From: Desulfobacteraceae bacterium | GTDB taxonomy: Bacteria > Desulfobacterota > DSM-4660 > Desulfatiglandales > HGW-15 | Length of the DNA: 8,569 bases | Assembly (NCBI GenBank): GCA_003819975.1 | Contig: RPPU01000161.1 | Span: forward strand, 1 to 8,569 | Direction of reading: 5' to 3' | Shown: positions 1 through 8,569 of the stretch, in pieces | Layout: every line of letters starts with the position of its first letter | How positions within the stretch are numbered: position 1 is the stretch's first letter | The notes under the pieces: generated by a model | Seen by the model: only the letters and a program-made list of their open reading frames with translations | Database searches by the model: none | What the model was told of the DNA's origin: nothing | Program-made: the position numbers and the translations under genes

Positions 1-250
1 CTTCTTTAAACAAGGGGGCGGTGGCGCGCGCGCCGCTCGGGCCGAAGAAACTTTGCCCCGGCCTGATCTGCAGCAGGTTGCTGCCCAATTTGGCGATATC
101 GGCCGTGACCCGGGCCGTGGTGCCTTTGCCGAGGGTCACCATGGTGATGACCGCGGCCACGCCGATAACAATGCCCAGGATGGTTAAAAAGGAGCGCATG
201 GCATTGCGCCGGATTTCACGCTGGGCTAAAATAATAGTTTCCCAAAACAT
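1..250 (-). CDS. MacB/FtsX-family ABC transporter permease, N-terminal part (cut by window edge)
   Basis: The first 83 codons are visible, starting from ATG at 250. The protein opens with a short amphipathic stretch, MFWETIILAQREIRRN. A first membrane segment follows at about residues 20-40 (FLTILGIVIGVAAVITMV), then the periplasmic start GKGTTARVTADIAKLGSNLLQI. This is the typical beginning of MacB-type permeases, in which TM1 leads into a large periplasmic domain ('LGSNLL' region). The family uses ATP hydrolysis to drive mechanotransmission across the periplasm and does not move substrate through the inner membrane itself. In E. coli MacB the ATPase is fused in front of this domain; here the ATPase is the separate upstream gene, as in YknY/YknZ-type systems. 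A GGAG lies 12 bases before the ATG. This is the last visible gene of the minus-strand efflux operon. The family is clear; the substrate is unknown. Confidence 0.93.
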   Translation of the reverse strand, partial: MFWETIILAQREIRRNAMRSFLTILGIVIGVAAVITMVTLGKGTTARVTADIAKLGSNLLQIRPGQSFFGPSGARATAPLFKE

Positions 251-269
251 TAAGCGTTTAGACTCCACA

Positions 270-291
270 TATCGACGATTTGCTGTCGATA
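270..291. repeat. Inverted repeat upstream of the permease start
   Basis: TATCGAC (270-276) and GTCGATA (285-291) form a perfect 7-bp stem around an 8-base loop. It lies in the 73-bp gap between the ATPase stop and the permease ATG, just before the permease ribosome binding site. It could tune processing or relative expression inside the operon. It has no T-tract, so it is not an obvious terminator. Its function is inferred only from its position. Confidence 0.35.
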
Positions 292-323
292 AATAAAAAG
301 ATTAATAATCAACTGAATGGTCC

Positions 324-1040
324 TCATACGGACACTTCAGACTCAATCAGGCCGTCGTGAAAACGGACAATGCGTTTGGCATAGCCGGCCATGTCGGGTT
401 CATGGGTAACCATGACAATGGTGATGCCGCGATCACGGTTCAGGACCGTGAGTAGATCCATAATTTCCCGGCCGCGAGCCGAATCCAGGTTACCGGTCGG
501 TTCATCGGCGAAAAGGACCTGGGGATCCATAACAATGGCGCGCGCAATGGATACGCGTTGTTGCTGGCCGCCGGAAAGTTCGCCGGGGGTGTGGGTCGCC
601 CACTCCACAAGACCCACGGCGGCCAGGGCTTGCAGAGCCAATTTTTTACGCTGCCCGGCCGGAGTGCCGCGATAGATGAGCGGGAGTTCCACGTTTTCCA
701 GGGCCGAAGTGCGGTTCAAGAGGTTGTAGCCCTGAAAGACAAATCCCAGGTAATGACGTCGCAACAAAGCGCGCTGATTGCGGGTCAAACCGGCGACATT
801 GGCGCCTTTGAAGCAATAAATTCCGGCGGTCGGCGTGTCCAGACAACCCAGAATATTCATGCAAGTGGATTTGCCCGAGCCGCTCGGGCCCATGACGGCG
901 ATGAATTCACCCTGGTCAATGTTGAATTGGATACCGCGCAGGGCATGGGTTGCGGCTGTGCCGGTCCCGTATACTTTGGTTACCCCCCGGAGTTCAATCA
1001 GATGATGTTCATCGGTCAACTGGCAGGCGATCTGGTTCAT
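324..1040 (-). CDS. MacB/LolD-type ABC transporter ATP-binding protein
   Basis: This is a 238-aa stand-alone nucleotide-binding subunit. Visible motifs in order are: Walker A GPSGSGKST (residues 51-59), Q-loop glutamine in VFQGYNLL (Q103), the signature LSGGQQQRVSIARA (155-168), Walker B VLFADEPTGNLD (175-186, with the catalytic Glu) and the H-loop VTHEP (His213). The N-terminal 'IELRGVTKVYGTGTAATHALRG' and the 'DEPTGNLDS' motif are characteristic of the MacB/LolD/FtsE subfamily. It should hydrolyse ATP on the cytoplasmic face for the permease encoded next. Its ATG overlaps the stop of the adaptor gene in an ATGA (1037-1040), which predicts translational coupling; the Shine-Dalgarno in front of it is weak, consistent with coupling. 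All catalytic motifs are intact and the length is normal. Confidence 0.97.
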   Translation of the reverse strand: MNQIACQLTDEHHLIELRGVTKVYGTGTAATHALRGIQFNIDQGEFIAVMGPSGSGKSTCMNILGCLDTPTAGIYCFKGANVAGLTRNQRALLRRHYLGFVFQGYNLLNRTSALENVELPLIYRGTPAGQRKKLALQALAAVGLVEWATHTPGELSGGQQQRVSIARAIVMDPQVLFADEPTGNLDSARGREIMDLLTVLNRDRGITIVMVTHEPDMAGYAKRIVRFHDGLIESEVSV

Positions 1041-2347
1041 GGTTTTTTGCTCACAATATCGACTAAAAGAGCCAAGCCGGGGGTCACGTCACCGGTCAGT
1101 ACTTCGGAATGGATTCCGTCGGTCATGCCGATGATGACCGGAATCGGCGTGGGCAGCCCGTTATTAAGGACCCAGACCTTTTGTTCTTTTTTACGATTGC
1201 CGTTTCCTTTGGACGGCTGATTTTGATTGGCATTGCGCGGCGGACCGTGCCGGCCGGGCAGCAGCGGGTTTACAAAACCGGTTTGGCCGGTCGCTTCCGC
1301 ATCGTTTTTGGCGGGCGGAGTAAAACGCAGGGCTGCATTCGGCACGAGCAGAGCGTTCCGGACTTTTTGGACAATAATTTCGGCCGTGGCAGTCATGCCG
1401 GGTCGTAAAGACAGATCGGAGTTGTCCACGCTAAGAACGGTTTCATAGGTCACAACACCGTTGGCGGTCTTGGCGCCGTTGCGTACCTGGGTGATTCGGC
1501 CGCGAAAAGTGCGGGTCGGAAAAGCATCGACCGTGAAGCGCGCTTCCTGGCCTTCCAGGATCTGGCCGACATCCGCCTCATCCACATCCACATGCAGCTC
1601 CATTTGGGCCAGGTTCTCGGCTAAAGTGAAAAGCACCGGGGCTTGCAAAGAAGCGGCTACGGTCTGACCGGGCTCCACGTTACGAATCAGTACGACCCCG
1701 TTGATGGGTGAACGGATGACTGTTTTGGATAAGTCGGTTTGTTTGGTTTTCAAGGTGGCTTGGGCTTGGGCTAGGTCGGCCTTGGCGCCGGCTTCATTGG
1801 CCAGAGCCCGGTCCAGGGCAGCTTGGGCCGCGACCAGATCGTTTTGCGACGGGGTTTTGCCGTTGGTCAGTTCCCGAACCTTTTGTATGCGTTCCAGATT
1901 ATTACGGGTTTCCAGGATAGTGGCCTGGGACTGCAGTACTTTGGCCTTGGCGGATTCCAGGCCTGCCTTGGATTGCACGACCTGAGTTTCCAACAGGGTG
2001 GTGTCCAGTTTGGCCAGGATTTGGCCGATCTTGACCCGGGAGTTGTAGTCCACAGCCACGCTCTTGACAATGCCGGAGAGCTCGCTGCCCACATCCACCT
2101 GGTTGGTGGGTTGCAAATTACCGGTGGCGGTCACAGTGACCGTCAGGTCGCCCTGGGTTGCTTCCTTGGTCTTGAAAGATACGGTGTTGGAAGCCTGGGA
2201 TCGTTGCCAAAAGAACAGCAATAAAGCGATGACCGGGACAAGCGCAAGGATCAACAGCCATTTTTTCAGGCGGCTTTTTTTGTTTTGAGCCGGATCCAAG
2301 CTCAGGGTTTGAAGCACATCCGGCGGAGTATTGTTATTATTTTTCAT
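1037..2347 (-). CDS. macA: MacA-like periplasmic adaptor (membrane fusion protein, HlyD/RND-MFP family)
   Basis: This 436-aa adaptor should link the inner-membrane ABC complex to the outer-membrane channel. A basic N-terminus leads to one membrane anchor (about residues 30-47, WLLILALVPVIALLLFFW). The first half of the lipoyl/barrel-sandwich domain follows ('TVTATGNLQPTNQVDVGSEL'), then a long alpha-hairpin (about 118-208, rich in Ala, Gln and Leu, coiled-coil-like). The second lipoyl half is 'IRSPINGVVLIRNVEPGQTV' (211-230). The beta-barrel includes 'VDVDEADVGQILEGQ' and 'LSLRPGMTATAEI'. Residues about 342-390 are a Pro/Asn/Gly/Lys-rich linker before the C-terminal membrane-proximal region. 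GGAG stands 7 bases before the ATG. It starts 15 bp after the outer-membrane gene and overlaps the ATPase gene by 4 bp. The pairing with a MacB-type ATPase and permease makes MacA the best family name; the exported substrate is not known. Confidence 0.95.
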   Translation of the reverse strand: MKNNNNTPPDVLQTLSLDPAQNKKSRLKKWLLILALVPVIALLLFFWQRSQASNTVSFKTKEATQGDLTVTVTATGNLQPTNQVDVGSELSGIVKSVAVDYNSRVKIGQILAKLDTTLLETQVVQSKAGLESAKAKVLQSQATILETRNNLERIQKVRELTNGKTPSQNDLVAAQAALDRALANEAGAKADLAQAQATLKTKQTDLSKTVIRSPINGVVLIRNVEPGQTVAASLQAPVLFTLAENLAQMELHVDVDEADVGQILEGQEARFTVDAFPTRTFRGRITQVRNGAKTANGVVTYETVLSVDNSDLSLRPGMTATAEIIVQKVRNALLVPNAALRFTPPAKNDAEATGQTGFVNPLLPGRHGPPRNANQNQPSKGNGNRKKEQKVWVLNNGLPTPIPVIIGMTDGIHSEVLTGDVTPGLALLVDIVSKKP

Positions 2348-2362
2348 TGAATATCTCCAAGT

Positions 2363-3838
2363 TTACTGCTTCTCCTCCGGGGCCAGAGCGGTCCAGCCGC
2401 CGCCCAGGGCTTTATACAGAGTGATCAGATTTTTAACAACCGAACCTTGGCTTTGGGCCAATTGATTCTGGGCTGAAAGCAAAGAGCGCTGGCTGTCGAG
2501 CACGACCTGGAAATCGACCAGACCGGCTTCGTATTTTTTTTGCGAAAGATCGGCGGCCGCGGTCGCGGCTTGGGCCGCCGCCATGAGCGCTTGTTGTCGG
2601 ATCTGCTCGTTGGCATAAGCGGTCAGGGCGTTTTCGGTTTCTTCCAAAGCAATAAGAATTTTACTCCCATATTGGTACAGGCTTTGATCCCGAACCGCGG
2701 ATTGGGCTTCCATGTTGCGCCGAACCGCCCCGGCGTCGAAAATCTTCCAGGTGATGCGCGGACCATAACTCAGGGTGCGGGTGTATTCTGAAAACAAGTT
2801 GCCGAACGAAGAGGCTTCGATACCGATGGAACCGGATAAAGAGATTTTTGGGTAGAGCTCGGCCGTGGCCACGCCGATGCGCGCGGTTTGGGCCGCCAGC
2901 TGGCGCTCGGCCTGACGCACATCCGGACGCTGACGAAGGGTTTCAGCCGGCACACCCACTGGGATTTCCGGGGCAGGCAAGGGCATGGGTTTGGGTTCCG
3001 CGAGTTCTTTTTCCAGAGCGCCGGGGGTTTCACCCGTCAGCACGGCCAGGCGGTTCTGGGCCGCTGTCAGTGTTGAGCGTAAAGAAGGAATTTGCGAACG
3101 GGTGTTTTCAAGGTTGGCTTTGGCTTGTTGCACGGCCAGATCGTCACTCAACCCGGCTTGATAGCGGAACTGAGTTAAGGTGTAGGTCTCCTGCTGAATG
3201 GCCAGATTCGATTCGGCTACAGCCAATTGGTTTTGCGATGACCGGACTTCCACATAATTCAAAGCGGTCTCGGCCAGCAAAGAAACCAGCACATCGCGCA
3301 AGGCTTCCTGATTGGCCTGCAGATCCGCATCCGCCGCTTCGATGGATCGGCGTACGCCTCCGAAAATGTCCAATTCCCAGCCGGCGTCAAAGCCGGCGCT
3401 GTAAAGGTCGCGGGTTTGGGTGGTATTGCCGGCGCGTGTGCCAATATTTTGCGGGTTGTTTTGCTTGGTTTCGCTATGCAAGTTGGATGCATTGGCGGTC
3501 AGGGTGGGAAAAAGATCGGTTTGGCTCAAACCGCGGCGGGCGCGCGCTTCGCGCACCTTGGCCCGGGCTTTTTTAAGATCCAAATTGCCGGCTACAGTCC
3601 GTTCGATCAGGCTGGTTAAAAGCGGGTCCTCAAGGGTCTGCCACCAGGTTGCCAAGGATTGCGAACCGGAGTTTAAGCTATTTGGTAATGGGGAATGCCA
3701 ATTAGCCGGGCTTTTGGAATCAGGCTTTACATAATTGGGACCAACGGCACAGCCGGAAATGAAAAGACAGGTCAGGCCGATGGCGAGCCATGATGCAATG
3801 TGGCTGAGGTGTTTAGCAATAGAATTATTTATTAACAT
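2363..3838 (-). CDS. Outer-membrane efflux lipoprotein, NodT/TolC family
   Basis: This protein of 491 aa should form the trimeric outer-membrane channel of the pump. An N-terminal signal ends in a lipobox, ISGC (Cys30 from the chosen start), followed by AVGPNYVKP, the hallmark opening of NodT/OprM-type factors. Two OEP repeats follow: alpha-helical stretches 'ARAKVREARARRGLSQTDLFPTL' and, in the second half, 'RQRPDVRQAERQLAAQTARIGVATAELYPKISL', a strongly conserved segment. The end 'NLITLYKALGGGW' is also typical. I chose ATG at 3838, because AAGG lies 8 bases upstream. An in-frame TTG at 3844 would add two residues but sits only 2 bases from that AAGG. It is the first gene of the efflux operon and is read divergently from the sigma gene. 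Domains are complete and length is normal. Confidence 0.96.
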   Translation of the reverse strand: MLINNSIAKHLSHIASWLAIGLTCLFISGCAVGPNYVKPDSKSPANWHSPLPNSLNSGSQSLATWWQTLEDPLLTSLIERTVAGNLDLKKARAKVREARARRGLSQTDLFPTLTANASNLHSETKQNNPQNIGTRAGNTTQTRDLYSAGFDAGWELDIFGGVRRSIEAADADLQANQEALRDVLVSLLAETALNYVEVRSSQNQLAVAESNLAIQQETYTLTQFRYQAGLSDDLAVQQAKANLENTRSQIPSLRSTLTAAQNRLAVLTGETPGALEKELAEPKPMPLPAPEIPVGVPAETLRQRPDVRQAERQLAAQTARIGVATAELYPKISLSGSIGIEASSFGNLFSEYTRTLSYGPRITWKIFDAGAVRRNMEAQSAVRDQSLYQYGSKILIALEETENALTAYANEQIRQQALMAAAQAATAAADLSQKKYEAGLVDFQVVLDSQRSLLSAQNQLAQSQGSVVKNLITLYKALGGGWTALAPEEKQ

Positions 3839-3898
3839 TATCAATACCTTATCTAAGATGGTCTCCGGAGTTCATGATTGCCGGCGAATATTCACTAA

Positions 3899-3924
3899 GT
3901 CGCCAAGTGCCGGAGAAAGTTACA
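3899..3924 (-). promoter_or_regulatory. Candidate ECF-sigma promoter for the efflux operon
   Basis: Read on the minus strand there is a -35 element TGTAAC (3924-3919, extended to TGTAACTTT), a 16-base spacer, and a -10 element CGAC (3902-3899). Transcription would begin near 3892 and give a leader of roughly 50 bases before the outer-membrane gene. An AAC-containing -35 with a CG-containing -10 is the general ECF promoter form, and TGTAAC/CGAC is the pattern known for B. subtilis SigX. A matching element faces the other way 9 bases from it, toward the ECF sigma gene. The sequence match is seen; use by this sigma factor is inferred. Confidence 0.62.
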
Positions 3925-3941
3925 TTCATTTTTGTAACTTT
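3916..3941. repeat. Inverted repeat joining the two divergent -35 elements
   Basis: AAAGTTACA (3916-3924) and TGTAACTTT (3933-3941) are perfect inverted copies around an 8-base centre. The arms contain the two divergent TGTAAC -35 elements plus three conserved downstream Ts, so the palindrome is best explained as back-to-back promoters. A third TGTAAC lies at 3951-3956, giving a longer inverted match GTTACATTC (3919-3927) to GAATGTAAC (3948-3956). A dimeric repressor operator is an alternative reading. Confidence 0.6.
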
Positions 3942-3959
3942 GAAATCGAATGTAACGAC
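3933..3959 (+). promoter_or_regulatory. Candidate ECF-sigma autoregulatory promoter
   Basis: The -35 element TGTAAC (3933-3938), a 17-base spacer (3939-3955) and the -10 element CGAC (3956-3959) face the ECF sigma gene. Element sequences and spacing match the B. subtilis SigX-type pattern. A start near 3966 would leave a leader of about 150 bases before the sigma ATG. ECF factors commonly transcribe their own operon, so this is most simply the autoregulatory promoter. The divergent twin supports a shared regulon. Confidence 0.65.
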
Positions 3960-4046
3960 CATATAAAACAAGAGCTGTTCCTGACAATATATGAATGGAA
4001 CCTGAATTTTTAAGGAGGGCTAAATTACCTATTACATGGGTCGCCA

Positions 4047-4075
4047 TTGACTTTAGACCGGGCCCTTGTCATAAT
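4047..4075 (+). promoter_or_regulatory. Sigma70-type promoter for the sigma/anti-sigma/sensor cassette
   Basis: TTGACT (4047-4052) and CATAAT (4070-4075) are separated by exactly 17 bases, each one base from consensus. The predicted start is near 4082, about 35 bases before the sigma ATG. It would provide basal expression of the cassette, which the upstream ECF-type promoter could amplify under stress. Confidence 0.6.
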
Positions 4076-4116
4076 TTCCTCCATTGCAGTTATAAAAATA
4101 ATCAATTGGGTGGAAA

Positions 4117-4707
4117 ATGGAACAGGACCCGAAGCATCCCGGTGACAAAGAGATCATTCAGCGCGTACTGGACGGCGAAGTAAATGCTTTTGAGGCGCTG
4201 CTAAAAAGGCATGAACAGCGGGTCCTCGGTATTGTGAAAAAACACGTTCCTTATGGCGAAGTCGAAGAAACGGCCCAGGAGGTTTTTATCAGGGTCTACC
4301 GGTCTTTACCGCGTTTTAAGTACGCGGACCGGTTCGAAGCTTGGATCAGCCGCATTGCCGTCAGGACCTGCTGCGATTTTTGGCGCAAGCGTTACCGCTC
4401 TAAAGAAGTCGCCTTGGAGGATCTATCCGAAGCCCAGCAACAATGGCTGGAGGGCACGCTGGCCGGACAGGCGCTGGAAAGTTTGGACGAGCAGAGCGGG
4501 CGCAAAGAGATGGAGGCGACATTGGATTGGGCCTTGAGCCGGTTGCCGGCCCGGGAACGCATGGTGTTGGAATTAACTTATCTGGAAGGGCTGTCCGGAA
4601 AGGAAACCGCCGCGCTCATGGAATGCACTCTGGCCAATGTCAAGGTCCGCGCTTTCCGGGCACGAAAAAAACTGGAGAAAATGCTGTTAAAGGTCTTGCG
4701 GCCTTAA
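4117..4707 (+). CDS. ECF (sigma70 group 4) RNA polymerase sigma factor
   Basis: This 196-aa protein has the two-domain ECF layout. Region 2 covers about residues 24-95: 'NAFEALLKRHEQRVLGIV', then 'EVEETAQEVFIRVYRSLPRFK' (the core-binding region 2.2 motif) and 'FEAWISRIAVRTCCDFWRKRYR' (regions 2.3/2.4, -10 recognition). A linker of about 35 residues follows. Region 4 (about 133-193) reads 'LDWALSRLPARERMVLELTYLEGLSGKETAALMECTLANVKVRAFRARKKLEKML', with the helix-turn-helix that contacts the -35. It should direct RNA polymerase to stress promoters. A purine-rich GGTGGA lies only a few bases before the ATG, so the ribosome site is close and not ideal. It is followed after 12 bp by a one-TM protein and then a Spy-like protein, the usual company of metal or envelope-stress ECF factors. 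The two TGTAAC/CGAC sites upstream are its likely targets. Confidence 0.96.
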   Translation: MEQDPKHPGDKEIIQRVLDGEVNAFEALLKRHEQRVLGIVKKHVPYGEVEETAQEVFIRVYRSLPRFKYADRFEAWISRIAVRTCCDFWRKRYRSKEVALEDLSEAQQQWLEGTLAGQALESLDEQSGRKEMEATLDWALSRLPARERMVLELTYLEGLSGKETAALMECTLANVKVRAFRARKKLEKMLLKVLRP

Positions 4708-4719
4708 AAGGAGGGTAAC

Positions 4720-5046
4720 ATGAAAGCGGATAACAACAAGCTCAGTAAACTGCTGTCGGTCTGGCGGCGAATGTACCTCTCGCGCGCAACCGAAGCCGTG
4801 GGGGATCAGTGGCAGACAGAAGCCATGCGCCGCATTCGTCTGATCGGCCCGCTCAATGCCCGGACCGGCTTTATGGAACTGTTCGAACAAATGGTCTGGC
4901 GCCTGGCGCCGGCCACCTCTCTTATGGTTGTCGCTTTGGTTGTGGTTTTCCTGGTCTCGGGCTTAACCCAAGGAAACGATGTTTTGGCCTTTATGAACGA
5001 TCCGGAAGAAATGGATCTGGCCCAGTTGCTCGGGTTTGGAGGATAA
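4720..5046 (+). CDS. One-TM protein, candidate anti-sigma factor (CnrY/RseA-like in position)
   Basis: This is a protein of 108 aa with no family I can name from motifs. The N-terminal ~60 residues are hydrophilic and helix-prone, with the repeated basic/hydrophobic pattern 'KLLSVWRRMYLSR' and 'MRRIRLIGPLN'. One membrane segment follows (about 66-82, TSLMVVALVVVFLVSGL), then a short acidic tail (NDPEEMDLAQLLGFGG). A short cytoplasmic helical region followed by one TM and a small periplasmic tail is the build of CnrY-type anti-sigma factors. The position, directly between an ECF sigma gene and a CnrX/Spy-like gene, supports that role. A strong AAGGAGGG stands just before the ATG, and the stop overlaps the next gene's first ATG. 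I see no zinc-binding HxxxCxxC (ZAS) motif. The anti-sigma role is inferred from context and topology. Confidence 0.8.
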   Translation: MKADNNKLSKLLSVWRRMYLSRATEAVGDQWQTEAMRRIRLIGPLNARTGFMELFEQMVWRLAPATSLMVVALVVVFLVSGLTQGNDVLAFMNDPEEMDLAQLLGFGG

Positions 5047-5048
5047 TG

Positions 5049-5441
5049 ATGAAACACTATAAATTATGGGCGGGCATTATTCTGGTTTTTATTCTGGGTC
5101 TGGTCGCGGGTTATATGGGGAGTTATATGCTGCACGGTCGCGCCTTTTGGCGCTCCGGTCATAAGGATGCGGCTACGCGCAATGCCGAGATTTTGGAGCG
5201 GTTCAGAAATGATTTGTCTTTGACAGACCCGCAGGTCTTACGCGTCAAAACGATCATCGAGCAGATGGAGGCCAAACGCAGCGAATACTTTCGCAAAAGC
5301 CGGGCCGAATTGAAAGCAATCGCGGAATCGGGCTTTGCCCTGATCCGTCTGGAATTGACGCCGGAACAGCAAAAGCTGTTTGACGAGAATCAAGCCAAAA
5401 TGGAAAAAGCGCGCAAAGAGAGAGAGCAATCGCGGAAGTAA
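5049..5441 (+). CDS. Membrane-anchored periplasmic Spy/CpxP/CnrX-like protein (Metal_resist type)
   Basis: This is a 130-aa protein. A signal-anchor spans about residues 7-27 (WAGIILVFILGLVAGYMGSYM). The rest is an all-helical, highly charged domain carrying two LTxxQ-type motifs, 'LSLTDPQ' (about 57-62) and 'LELTPEQQ' (about 101-108), the signature of Spy/CpxP and of the heavy-metal-resistance sensors related to CnrX and ZraP. His29 and His38 after the anchor could bind metal, but I cannot assign ligands. The likely role is periplasmic sensing of metal or misfolded protein that frees the ECF sigma factor through the preceding one-TM protein. GGAGG (5038-5042) sits 6 bases from ATG 5049 and only 3 from the in-frame ATG 5046, which overlaps the previous stop, so I chose 5049. 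Reading in this frame continues upstream to 4809, but that part overlaps the preceding gene and is not coding. Confidence 0.8.
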   Translation: MKHYKLWAGIILVFILGLVAGYMGSYMLHGRAFWRSGHKDAATRNAEILERFRNDLSLTDPQVLRVKTIIEQMEAKRSEYFRKSRAELKAIAESGFALIRLELTPEQQKLFDENQAKMEKARKEREQSRK

Positions 5442-5460
5442 GCCGATGGTTCTTTTGCTT

Positions 5461-5485
5461 TATAAAACGGTTTTGCCGTTTTATA
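5461..5485 (+). terminator. Hairpin after the sigma cassette, possible terminator
   Basis: TATAAAACGG (5461-5470) and CCGTTTTATA (5476-5485) form a perfect 10-bp stem with a 5-base loop, 19 bp after the sensor stop. The arm itself is A-rich on one side and T-rich on the other, so it could act in either direction. The GC core is only 3 bp and no separate T-run follows, which makes it a weak terminator at best. Confidence 0.45.
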
Positions 5486-5503
5486 CGGAAAAATATATCC
5501 GCA

Positions 5504-5531
5504 TTCAACAAGAAATTTGATTATATATAAT
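5504..5531 (+). promoter_or_regulatory. Weak promoter candidate for the phosphoesterase gene
   Basis: A perfect TATAAT -10 (5526-5531) lies in an AT-rich stretch, with a poor -35 match TTCAAC (5504-5509) at 16 bases. It is placed between the hairpin and the phosphoesterase start. The -10 is good and the -35 is not, and AT-rich DNA gives such matches by chance. Confidence 0.3.
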
Positions 5532-5606
5532 AGAAACAGATGAAATTATCGTTACAGCAGTTGCGCATCTGCATAGAGACCCGGAACATTATAAAGATAG
5601 AATTTT

Positions 5607-6338
5607 GTGAAAATATCAAAAAAGCAAACTGCCGGAAAAACCCAACAAAATCGTAAAAAGCCGATAAAACTGCGGAAAACATCCAAATCAACAATATCCT
5701 CTCCCAAACAGGCGCGGACGGCGTACCGCCGGAAACGAAATTTTTCAAAAACCGTTGAGCCTGTTGGCGGAGCCAAAGCAACGATTCAGGGTCCGTTGAC
5801 TTTTGTCATTCAAAAACATGCGGCCCGGCATTTACACTTTGATCTGCGCCTGGAGCTGGATGGCGTGATGAAAAGCTGGGCCGTGCCCAAAGGGCCGAGC
5901 CTGGACCCGGCAAACAAACGCCTGGCCATGCAGGTCGAAGACCATCCCATTGAGTACAACCTATTTGAAGGGACGATTCCGGAAGGAGAATACGGCGGCG
6001 GCACGGTTATGCTTTGGGATCAGGGCACTTATCGCCATGATGAAGAAAACTCCGGTGATCTTGAAAGTCTGCGGCAAGGTTATGCCAAAGGCGACCTGAA
6101 ATTGATTTTTGCCGGCAAGCGGCTCAAGGGGGCCTGGGCTCTGGTGCGCATGCAAAAGAGCGACCCAAAACGTCCGCAATGGCTCCTGATCAAACGACGC
6201 GATGCTTTCGCCGATTCCCAAATCGACATGGTGGAGAAGTATCAAACTTCGGTGACAACCGGACGGACCATGGAAGAGATCGCAATCCGGAAGACAACAT
6301 CGGCGCCCTGGCAGTCCGTTTGTCCGCGGAAGAGTTGA
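5607..6338 (+). CDS. Stand-alone LigD-type DNA repair 3'-phosphoesterase (PE domain)
   Basis: This is a 243-aa protein whose residues about 45-226 form a LigD N-terminal phosphoesterase domain. Such enzymes trim 3'-phosphate or 3'-ribonucleotide ends during DNA end joining. 'FVIQKHAARHLHFDLRLE' (67-84) supplies His71, His77, Asp79 and Arg81. 'VEDHPIEY' (110-117) supplies Glu111, His113 and Tyr117. By spacing these align with the metal and phosphate ligands of Pseudomonas LigD PE. 'WAVPKGPS', 'FEGTIPEGEYGGGTV', 'LKGAWALVR', 'WLLIKRRDAFA' and 'VTTGRTMEEIA' are also family motifs. The start is GTG with a poor ribosome site; no in-frame ATG precedes the domain. The first ~50 residues are a Lys/Arg-rich tail that could bind nucleic acid. 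After 'EEIA' the sequence leaves family similarity, because the DNA there matches an aldo/keto reductase end in another frame. No ligase, polymerase or Ku gene is nearby. Confidence 0.92.
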   Translation: MKISKKQTAGKTQQNRKKPIKLRKTSKSTISSPKQARTAYRRKRNFSKTVEPVGGAKATIQGPLTFVIQKHAARHLHFDLRLELDGVMKSWAVPKGPSLDPANKRLAMQVEDHPIEYNLFEGTIPEGEYGGGTVMLWDQGTYRHDEENSGDLESLRQGYAKGDLKLIFAGKRLKGAWALVRMQKSDPKRPQWLLIKRRDAFADSQIDMVEKYQTSVTTGRTMEEIAIRKTTSAPWQSVCPRKS

Positions 6339-6421
6339 AGCGTTTGGATGAAGCGTTTCCCGCGGGCGCGGCCGCCGGCGATCGTTATGCGACCCAAGGC
6401 ATGCAAGCTGTAAACCGTTAA
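6281..6421 (+). pseudogene. Aldo/keto reductase C-terminal remnant
   Basis: In the frame ending at the TAA of 6419-6421, the DNA reads RNPEDNIGALAVRLSAEELK and then RLDEAFPAGAAAGDRYATQG followed by MQAVNR. This is the recognisable last ~46 residues of aldo/keto reductases, where a 'YLEENIGAL...LDAAFPPGAAAGxRY...NR' tail is common. The other ~280 residues, including the TIM-barrel active site, are absent. The remnant begins exactly where the phosphoesterase loses family similarity (about 6280-6290) and overlaps the end of that gene in a different frame. It has no start signal of its own. It is a gene fragment left by a deletion or recombination, or an assembly join. Confidence 0.7.
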
Positions 6422-6846
6422 AGGATTCAATCCGATATTTTACATCCGGTAACCGGTTGGATATTCGAAAAAGGATAGATTTTCAGCCGGTCTCCCGCCT
6501 CCAAATCGGTCCATGATATGCAAAATAAACCGAATAAAGACACCGTTCCGGCCGGCTTGTCCGTTTGCCGTTTTTAACACGTCGTTGCTATATTATGTGC
6601 GGTAAGCAAGGTTTTGGGGCGCAAATAAAAAAGGTTACTATAAAAGAATTGGTACACGGTTTAGATAAAAATTTAATAAAACTAAAGTAGGGATACATGA
6701 TGATCGGCAAAGCGAAAGGGAATCGTTTTTCTTAAGGCCTGTTTTTTGAATCGCAATCCGTATCGTTCCTCAATTCCTTTGCTCTATTCCGTAAAACCTT
6801 CCGGTTCTGCTCCGTTTATGTTCGTGCTTCTAAAAATAACTAACGA

Positions 6847-6863
6847 TACGGCTTATAGCCGTA
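6847..6863. repeat. Short hairpin TACGGCT/AGCCGTA
   Basis: This is a perfect 7-bp stem with a 3-base loop (TAT). Its left arm shares TACGG (6847-6851) with a longer-range 10-bp inverted repeat (6758-6767 with 6842-6851), so the two pairings cannot form together in one RNA. No T-run follows, so it is not a terminator. Confidence 0.4.
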
Positions 6864-7091
6864 ATAAATTGCAGACCAGTCGGTCCACTCCGGCGGCAGG
6901 GTGCTTCGAAACGTAATAAAAGTCCTGCTATTATCATTCGTTCTTGAAATCAATTTTATCGTATTGCTTGTTCTCGAAAGTTTACGATTAATTGCTCCGT
7001 CTCGTTCGGCTTGACTTCCTCGATTATTATCCGCGGATTATAGCTCTTTAAACGAGTCGGAAATGAATGACGGTATTCCCACTCATGCATG

Positions 7092-7115
7092 CGCGGCATT
7101 TTTGCCGCGTTTTAT
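7092..7115 (+). terminator. Rho-independent terminator (plus strand)
   Basis: CGCGGCA (7092-7098) and TGCCGCG (7103-7109) form a GC-rich 7-bp stem with a TTTT loop. TTTTAT follows at once. This is a compact, standard intrinsic terminator for plus-strand transcription. No protein gene ends just upstream, so it either serves an unrecognised transcript in 6650-7090 or is a leftover. Confidence 0.6.
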
Positions 7116-7183
7116 CTGTATTTACTCGGGTTTTACCGCTACTGATTGCATTTTAGCGCTGTCAGTTCTTTTATAATAACCGC

Positions 7184-7390
7184 ATGGCGTATTATTTTTG
7201 TAAGTTTTTTAATAAAAAAGTTGACTCGAAAATTGTCATGGATCATAATGGGCGCAAATACCTAATTGCGAATAGGGTTTGTGACGCATTCGCCGATTCG
7301 GGCGAAGAGCCGTTTTTGAAAGCCGGGAATCCGCGGCACTCCCGGTCATTAGTTCCAAAACAATTTAGCATCCAGTCGAAAAGACAGTAA
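7184..7390 (+). CDS. Small hypothetical reading frame, possibly frameshifted
   Basis: This frame has 68 codons and no recognised family. It begins MAYYFCKFFNKKVDSKIVMD and continues with a mixed charged sequence. TATAAT (7172-7177) sits so close to the ATG that a transcript from it would be nearly leaderless, and there is no good Shine-Dalgarno. The last ~20 residues look unlike the rest. A different frame, open from 7369 to the TGA at 7516-7518, gives a well-behaved charged tail (DAPEALLYVKEEALNEP and onward). One extra A in the AAAA run at 7379-7382 would join the two into about 111 residues. It may therefore be a broken small gene, a sequencing indel, or non-coding. Confidence 0.25.
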   Translation: MAYYFCKFFNKKVDSKIVMDHNGRKYLIANRVCDAFADSGEEPFLKAGNPRHSRSLVPKQFSIQSKRQ

Positions 7391-7532
7391 CTTTCATATA
7401 CCCGAGACAAATCCGATCCGATGCCCCTGAAGCGCTCCTCTACGTCAAAGAAGAGGCATTGAACGAACCCATACCTTCGGAAATTCAAAAGACCAGGAAC
7501 ATTTTGCAAACTTATTGAACGGAGTAATCGTC

Positions 7533-8569
7533 ATGAAAAAAAAGAATATATCTCTTATCGTTTTAGTGTTTTTAATACAGATCGTCGCTTGTTTCAGCGC
7601 GTTCGCGGATGACTATCCATGCACCGGAACTTTACTTGCAACCTATACGGATCAATCGCTAGCGCTCACGCCGGGTGTCTATTGCAGTTCAACTGACGTG
7701 ACATTCACTCGTACGACATTGACGCTTGATGCCCTGGGTGACCCCAATGCCGTCTGGATTTTTAAAATCGGGACGCTCGGAACCGGTAAGCTCACGGGCA
7801 ATAACGTCATATTGAAACTTGCCAATGGCGGACAGTTGAATAATGTGTATTGGTGGGTGTCCGGCGCCATGACCCTGATGAGCGCAGACTTCAAAGGCGC
7901 CATTGTCACGGGCGCAACCGGCATCATAGACGGAGGTACCTTGCCAACCATCGCTTCCGTATCGGGCAATATCGGCAATGGCGGTGACATAACCATTTCC
8001 GGCATAAGATTCGGCAATACCGGCCCCAACGTTGTATTTTTTGAAAATTTTGAAAAAGGAAGCAAAGACGCTCAGATTGCCACTTCTTCCGCAACGATAG
8101 GTCAATGGGCCCGTGGTAACCTGAATGGCGTGGCAACTTACAATACTACTTGGTTTCACAGCGGTTCCAAGGCTATGAAGAATAATTGGGACGTTCCTAA
8201 TGGCGAGCCCAATAATATCGATGCGGCGCCCAAAATTGCATTTAGCAATACGGATAACCTTTTTTATTCTTTTTGGACAATGGTTCCAACCGGTATGAAT
8301 GTTCCCGGAGACAATATTACCGGCGGCAATACCATCGGACCCAACTGGAAATTGTCCTGGATCAACTTTGGCGTGAACGAGTATATCAGCACGACCGTAC
8401 TCAATTGCAATTTAACTTGGGGTTATTGGTTCACCTGGAACAACGGCAATCGCGCCGGAAATTATGAAGGGAACCATCAAATGGCCAAGGGGCGCTGGAG
8501 TCGTTTTGATTTTTATCAAAAGTCGGCGTCCACGACCACCGGTGCTTTAATAGGTGATGAATTCGATTC
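7533..8569 (+). CDS. Exported DUF3494 (ice-binding-like) protein with TIG-like linker and jelly-roll domain, 3' end outside window
   Basis: 345 codons are visible and the frame is still open at the window end. ATG 7533 has GGAG 8 bases upstream. The N-terminus MKKKN plus a hydrophobic run is an export signal, cleaved either at SAFA|DD (after residue 25) or, less likely, as a lipoprotein at IVA|C20. Residues about 30-137 match the second half of a DUF3494 (Pfam Ice_binding) beta-solenoid: 'LALTPGVY', 'LTLDALGDPNAVWIFKIG', 'NNVYWWVSG', 'FKGAIVTGAT'. The usual N-terminal half ('NFAVLAGS...GVSPG') is missing. Residues about 138-170 (VSGNIGNGGDITISGIRFGN) look like a TIG/IPT-type strand pair. From 'VVFFENFEKGSKD' (168) onward, with 'SGSKAMKNNW', 'FYSFWTMVP' and 'GRWSRFDFYQK', the sequence resembles concanavalin-like or polysaccharide-lyase jelly-roll domains. 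DUF3494 proteins are extracellular; some bind ice and many have unknown adhesive roles. Function here is unproven. Confidence 0.85.
   Translation, partial: MKKKNISLIVLVFLIQIVACFSAFADDYPCTGTLLATYTDQSLALTPGVYCSSTDVTFTRTTLTLDALGDPNAVWIFKIGTLGTGKLTGNNVILKLANGGQLNNVYWWVSGAMTLMSADFKGAIVTGATGIIDGGTLPTIASVSGNIGNGGDITISGIRFGNTGPNVVFFENFEKGSKDAQIATSSATIGQWARGNLNGVATYNTTWFHSGSKAMKNNWDVPNGEPNNIDAAPKIAFSNTDNLFYSFWTMVPTGMNVPGDNITGGNTIGPNWKLSWINFGVNEYISTTVLNCNLTWGYWFTWNNGNRAGNYEGNHQMAKGRWSRFDFYQKSASTTTGALIGDEFD

Follow-up and report, generated by a model that had tools for sequence, protein, structure and literature searches.

The nearest functional model for the locus described here is the CnrYXH-CnrCBA system of Cupriavidus metallidurans, in which an extracytoplasmic function (ECF) sigma factor, a membrane anti-sigma factor and an anchored helical sensor control an efflux pump (as described in parts of PMC7689651 and PMC4598750). 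The locus lies on contig RPPU01000161.1 (assembly GCA_003819975.1, positions 1 to 8,569 of the forward strand) of a Desulfobacteraceae bacterium belonging to the Desulfobacterota; this whole stretch of 8,569 nucleotides is referred to as the window. It contains two back-to-back copies of the element TGTAAC-N16/17-CGAC between an ECF sigma factor cassette and the genes of a MacA/TolC-type pump. Judged from sequence comparison, the two elements are probably (at a probability of roughly 0.85) divergent promoters from which one ECF sigma factor drives both its own cassette and the pump.

Like CnrYXH, the cassette in the window combines a sigma factor with a short, predicted membrane anti-sigma factor and an anchored sensor. 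The pump differs, being a MacA-type ATP-binding cassette (ABC) exporter instead of a resistance-nodulation-division (RND) pump, and the gene order here is sigma factor, anti-sigma factor, sensor. In addition, the sensors here have no well-conserved histidine, methionine or cysteine, and a gene for a secreted Spy-like protein is present in addition at about half of the loci.

For the type of pump, the nearest regulatory precedent is found in Bacillus subtilis, where the ECF sigma factor SigW controls the yknWXYZ ABC transporter, which is protective against the toxic SdpC protein (from part of PMC3210768). ECF control of such an ABC exporter thus has a precedent, although an earlier note on this DNA, made from the sequence alone, had regarded the wiring of an ECF/Spy-like pair to a MacAB-type pump as less familiar. 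B. subtilis is Gram-positive and no TolC is present there. YknX is presumably MacA-like, with the ATPase and the permease split between proteins. The logic of the anti-sigma factor RsiW differs, and the yknWXYZ operon does not lie beside the sigma factor gene. Another B. subtilis sigma factor, SigX, has what we take to be a similar consensus (TGTAAC-N17-CGAC-like), a likeness to the window that lies in the promoter letters only.

In Escherichia coli, Spy/CpxP-type periplasmic proteins belong to the Cpx/Bae envelope-stress regulon, which also includes export pumps and is controlled by two-component systems. Here, control would instead lie with an ECF sigma factor, and a membrane-anchored Spy-like protein is encoded in the sigma factor operon itself. 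A further comparison is offered by SigAb-AabA-AabB of Acinetobacter, an autoregulated ECF sigma factor operon with two cotranscribed genes that have anti-sigma activity and a small direct regulon (PMC12153292, in part). That system is copper responsive, its RND pumps are under indirect control, and it is likened to the window by description, not by sequence. Literature searches found no description of the circuit proposed here or of this group of ECF sigma factors.

Two divergent, predicted promoter elements

The minus-strand element, TGTAAC-N16-CGAC, occupies positions 3924-3899 (TGTAACTTTCTCCGGCACTTGGCGAC) and is the predicted ECF promoter of the pump operon, with an exact -35 element (TGTAAC, 3924-3919), a 16-base spacer and an exact -10 element (CGAC, 3902-3899). 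On the plus strand, TGTAAC-N17-CGAC at 3933-3959 (TGTAACTTTGAAATCGAATGTAACGAC) is the predicted ECF autoregulatory promoter of the sigma factor cassette; it is likewise an exact match, with TGTAAC at 3933-3938, a 17-base spacer and CGAC at 3956-3959. The end of the minus element is 54 bases from the called TTG start (3844) of the TolC-type frame and 60 bases from a likelier ATG (3838), while 157 bases separate the end of the plus element from the ATG of the sigma factor gene at 4117. When spacers of 14 to 19 bases were allowed, this divergent pair made up the only two matches in the whole window (shuffled expectation 0.06; two matches in 0 of 200 shuffles). The earlier note had reported two oppositely facing copies with spacers of 16 and 17 and had found no third copy in the window, and it was exact on both counts.

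The two -35 elements also form a perfect 9-base inverted repeat in the window, AAAGTTACA-N8-TGTAACTTT, which could be taken for the operator of a dimeric transcription factor, the CGAC tetramers then being incidental. This explanation is highly improbable and is largely refuted by the related loci introduced below. In the eight divergent-pump loci that have both exact elements, the two -35 elements lie 8 bases apart in the window and 20, 26, 27, 44, 65, 85 and 90 bases apart in the seven others, whereas the distance from TGTAAC to CGAC is fixed at 16-17. The inverted repeat of the window is therefore not the conserved unit. Moreover, 12 of 44 element-bearing loci have the element on both strands.

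Conservation of the element upstream of the sigma factor gene

When species genomes were first scanned with the sigma factor protein, four loci in Desulfobacterota (L001-L004) and three remote loci in Firmicutes were found. The order-level sample comprised 291 genomes of the order to which L004 (Desulfatibacillum alkenivorans) belongs, and the sigma factor was present at E≤1e-30 in 55 of them, including L001-L004. The 56 loci compared are 51 newly fetched regions (with flanks of up to 6 kb), L001-L004 and the window; L005-L007 (sigma factor matches at 28-30% identity) were left out, and L008-L037 were superseded by the wider L038-L088 plus L001-L004. Four loci with little upstream sequence (fewer than 40 bases in L042 and L049, fewer than 850 in L046 and L053) are counted among the 56 and the 47 loci used as denominators below.

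Within 1.2 kb upstream of the sigma factor gene, and with spacers of 15 to 17 bases, the exact element is present on the plus strand in 42 of the 56 loci, on the minus strand in 14 and on both in 12 (44 loci on either strand). Spacers of 17 bases account for 39 plus-strand and 12 minus-strand sites and spacers of 16 for three and two, respectively, while any other spacer from 8 to 30 gives at most two. The 51 aligned sites with a 17-base spacer yield the consensus TGTAAC-CTTT at -35 and CGAC-T-W-A-A at -10. When the letters of the hexamer and tetramer were permuted at random 2000 times (repeats allowed), the maximum was four loci and the mean 0.085; the elements are not due to chance. Two of the 14 loci without an exact plus-strand element have almost no upstream sequence, and 11 of the remaining 12 have a version with one mismatch, seven of these with CGTAAC or TGTATC as the -35 element. 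Matches with at most one mismatch numbered three on both strands of a different stretch, namely 169 kb from 50 pump loci in genomes that lack the sigma factor. The other 521 kb of the same 56 loci contain four sites with a 17-base spacer, two of which lie ahead of further Spy-like genes (L045 and L087; by eye).

A wider sample at the level of the phylum comprised 395 genomes, 32 of which have the sigma factor at E≤1e-40; four of these had been seen before and two were without a fetched locus, leaving 26 new loci. The architecture of the window is repeated in one of them (L193, genome G347), where TolC is divergent and both elements are present, and in another (L192, G656) the elements lie back to back with a Spy-like gene on the other side. 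The minus-strand element is present in 3 of the 26.

Association of the element with pump genes

Searches with tblastn found a divergent MacA or TolC relative in 8 of the 56 loci (the window, L002, L039, L060, L063, L067, L078 and L080). L065 is counted as a ninth divergent-pump locus: its contig ends inside a reading frame, the first 52 residues of which match the MacA of L060 and L063 (63 and 56%, respectively). The minus-strand element is present in all nine divergent-pump loci and in 5 of the 47 others (Fisher 2.6e-7, a value that is optimistic, as are those given below, since the genomes are related and their independence is overstated). Conservation of the elements in genomes with the same gene pair, a check proposed in the earlier note, is thus borne out. 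In one of the nine (L078), the minus element is exact and the plus element is found only with one mismatch.

The association extends to pump genes that are unlinked to the sigma factor gene. Of the 291 genomes, 77 have MacA relatives at E≤1e-70, and the sigma factor is present in 20 of these and absent from 57. At this threshold no MacA relative was found in the genome of D. alkenivorans (L004), a cultured, non-pathogenic species that has the cassette and an element with one mismatch. The element lies on the coding strand of unlinked pump operons in 6 of the 10 loci from sigma-positive genomes that have sufficient upstream sequence and in 0 of 50 loci from sigma-negative genomes (Fisher 4e-6, or 7e-6 with 45 sigma-negative loci). 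Left out of this comparison were G001 (about 250 bases upstream), G008, where the contig ends, and both G132 and G254, in which the pump lies downstream of the cassette. On the sigma-negative side, 50 of 62 loci were examined and 12 were not fetched; 5 of the 50 have less than 1.5 kb of upstream sequence. The element is 92 bases ahead of MacA in G118 (a locus that came first from the motif search and is also listed by the MacA search) and 150 and 383 bases ahead of the TolC frame in G014 and G017. In G169 it is upstream of a TolC whose called frame is over-extended, and in G082 it is 98 bases ahead of a gene for a Spy-like protein, with TolC and MacA following. The identity of TolC was checked. 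One pump region, that of G283, has the element twice, 110 bases ahead of TolC and no more than 180 bases from the MacA match; a longer stretch was taken here because a strict match was already known, and the second element is within the normal range.

Several observations weigh against the reading of these elements as promoters of this one sigma factor, in addition to the relatedness of the genomes. Five loci have the minus-strand element without a divergent pump (L057, L070, L076, L082 and L085). Inspected by eye, the region behind the element holds a decayed MacB-permease remnant in L057 and Spy-like secreted proteins in L070 and L076, and no gene was identified behind it in L082 and L085. 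Strict matches outside the sigma factor locus in the 55 genomes numbered 16, against 20 for a reversed-pattern control. Of the 26 new loci in the phylum sample, 10 have the exact plus-strand element, seven a one-mismatch version and nine neither (one of the nine has just 203 bases upstream), and the element is more often missing with more distant sigma factors. The anti-sigma candidate is assigned by position, length and a model of low confidence (predicted local distance difference test score, pLDDT, 60). Finally, 4 of the 10 unlinked pump loci in sigma-positive genomes (G055, G071, a second locus of G082, and G116) are without the element.

The last of these points would suit cross-talk, in which a different or additional ECF factor reads the elements. 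Other ECF factors may be encoded in these genomes (a first look gave up to 23 candidates per genome, with ECF membership unchecked), and TGTAAC-CGAC is presumably a SigX-type consensus as well. Cross-talk nevertheless has only a small probability, as the element at pump operons tracks the presence of this particular sigma factor gene (6/10 versus 0/50) and precedes the sigma factor's own cassette in 42 of 56 loci. Comparison among loci shows the two elements to be real and conserved, with the spacing expected of ECF promoters, and to be tied to the sigma factor, its cassette and the MacA/TolC pump. Since the element is associated with the sigma factor cassette and with both linked and unlinked pumps, the sigma factor very probably turns on its own cassette as well as the pump. 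This agrees with the prediction in the earlier note of one ECF factor that activates its own sensor cassette and a divergent pump, which both the linked and the unlinked comparisons support.

Other genes behind the element include those for Spy-like secreted proteins; in L089 (G010), two tandem copies of the element, 79 bases apart, lie ahead of one such gene. An element also lies ahead of a gene for a secreted YVTN beta-propeller-like protein (by eye) in L058 (upstream of the sigma factor gene, minus strand, spacer 16) and L096 (genomes G176 and G169), and the regulon may extend to this protein. In L194 (reverse complement, 5736-6980), TolC from residue 222 abuts the sigma factor from residue 51, so that the divergent promoter region is absent along with the beginnings of both genes, through either deletion or misassembly.

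The sigma factor cassette

The ECF sigma factor (4117..4707, plus strand) is a short protein with sigma-70 regions 2 and 4 (Sigma70_r2 and Sigma70_r4_2, both above cut-off), and its PDB sequence matches include CnrH (4cxf, 8e-11). A SigX model is absent from the best 25 of its 90 NCBIfam matches, the library's possession of such a model being unchecked. A probable membrane anti-sigma factor of 108 residues follows (4720..5046, plus strand), with two cytosolic helices, one transmembrane helix and a short periplasmic tail; it has no Pfam match above cut-off, and no zinc-binding motif was seen by eye. Upstream of the sigma factor gene, a weak, possible housekeeping promoter lies at 4047-4075 on the plus strand (TTGACT-N17-CATAAT with TG ahead of the -10; 10 of 12 matches in a consensus scan). 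The same scan gave four promoter-like sigma-70 sites in the region versus 1.4 expected. Located between the ECF promoter and the sigma factor gene, this site could be a source of basal sigma factor.

The third gene of the cassette (5043..5441, plus strand) encodes a putative membrane-anchored, Spy/CpxP/CnrX-like four-helix sensor of 132 residues. It scores 19.3 bits against the LTXXQ family (cut-off 24.3), and 10 of 10 aligned relatives match this family at E≤1, the best at 7.8e-7; two of four secreted relatives pass the cut-off. The protein that the earlier note called Spy-like is membrane anchored like CnrX, and a second, secreted Spy-like protein accompanies it in about half of the related loci. 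By tblastn, an anti-sigma relative is found behind the sigma factor in 42 of the 56 loci, a sensor relative in 40 and at least one of the two in 50. The secreted Spy-like gene lies ahead of the sigma factor in 30 of 56 loci and is missing from the window. At the usual place of this gene, L002 has a protein of 109 residues (5622-5951) with two EF-hand-like loops (by eye).

Another reading is that of a true Cnr/Ncc-type metal-resistance system, with a metal ion bound by the sensor and the metal, or a complex of it, exported by the pump. This is unlikely. Among 49 sensors picked by position, no column other than the initiator methionine has histidine, methionine or cysteine at 60% or more (the best histidine column reaches 53%), in a comparison made by column, with no one-to-one mapping of CnrX ligand positions and acidic ligands not included. 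CnrX homologues, on the other hand, keep Met123 (according to part of PMC7689651). The pump is of the ABC type and not RND. As the RND pump and the conserved histidine and methionine ligands both fail, the locus is not classed as a Cnr system.

A proposed circuit

In the proposed circuit, the plus-strand promoter would serve the sigma factor, anti-sigma factor and sensor genes, providing positive autoregulation, and the minus-strand promoter would serve the genes for TolC, MacA, the ATPase and the permease. In the resting state, the sigma factor would be kept at the inner membrane by the short membrane anti-sigma factor. On sensing a signal in the periplasm, the anchored Spy/CnrX-like protein would cause the anti-sigma factor to relax, and the freed sigma factor would fire both promoters, raising the level of a MacA-TolC ABC exporter that may remove the offending compound. 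We infer that this sigma factor reads the elements, that the anti-sigma factor and sensor act in these steps in response to an inducing signal, and that the inducer is exported. Envelope damage is a more likely signal than a CnrX-type metal because the sensors have no well-conserved histidine, methionine or cysteine column.

The promoter pair and its recurrence in related bacteria point to an unstudied envelope-stress system. It is possible, albeit somewhat doubtful, that many Desulfobacterota possess in it an ECF-based counterpart of the Cpx/Bae responses. The anchored Spy-like chaperone would then be the sensor, which damaged envelope protein or a membrane-active compound would titrate, and the response through the sigma factor would consist of secreted Spy-like chaperones and a MacA-type exporter, a Cnr-like module having been re-tasked from metal to envelope damage. 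The natural inducers of MacA-type pumps and the inputs of Spy/CnrX-like sensors are open questions, and the two meet in this one small circuit. The analysis gives this ECF group a concrete predicted regulon (its own cassette, Spy-like proteins and a MacA-type pump), and the promoter pair is usable as a reporter for the inducing signal.

Pump genes and remaining genes of the window

The pump genes are all on the minus strand. The first (2363..3844) encodes a TolC/NodT-family outer-membrane channel (OEP, 1.8e-44; TIGR01845, 3.4e-114, above cut-off), for which the ATG at 3838, with AAGG about 9 bases ahead, is a likelier start than the TTG at 3844 (by eye). It is followed by a MacA-type periplasmic adaptor (1037..2347; NF008606 MacA, 5.6e-46, below the equivalog cut-off) whose closest solved structures are those of MacA (9qgy, E 1e-33). 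An ABC ATPase of 238 residues (324..1040; ABC_tran, 1.6e-29) overlaps the end of the MacA gene and is MacB/LolD-like; among NCBIfam models, it matches the N-terminal part of MacB best (3.2e-70, below that model's cut-off). The N-terminus of a MacB_PCD-type permease (2..268; MacB_PCD, 1.5e-13) is cut by the window edge. The earlier note's identities for the flanking genes (TolC/NodT, MacA-type adaptor and ABC ATPase on the minus strand; ECF sigma factor, anti-sigma-like and Spy-like proteins on the plus strand) all hold. Its description of the pump as MacAB-TolC stands for the MacA-type adaptor with TolC and fails for MacB, as the ATPase and permease are on separate genes and not in the fused protein of MacAB-TolC.

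Two further genes lie downstream of the cassette. One, at 5607-6338, encodes a protein with a LigD 3'-phosphoesterase domain, and the other, at 7515-8567, encodes a protein that has an ice-binding-like domain and whose C-terminal extension continues past the window edge.
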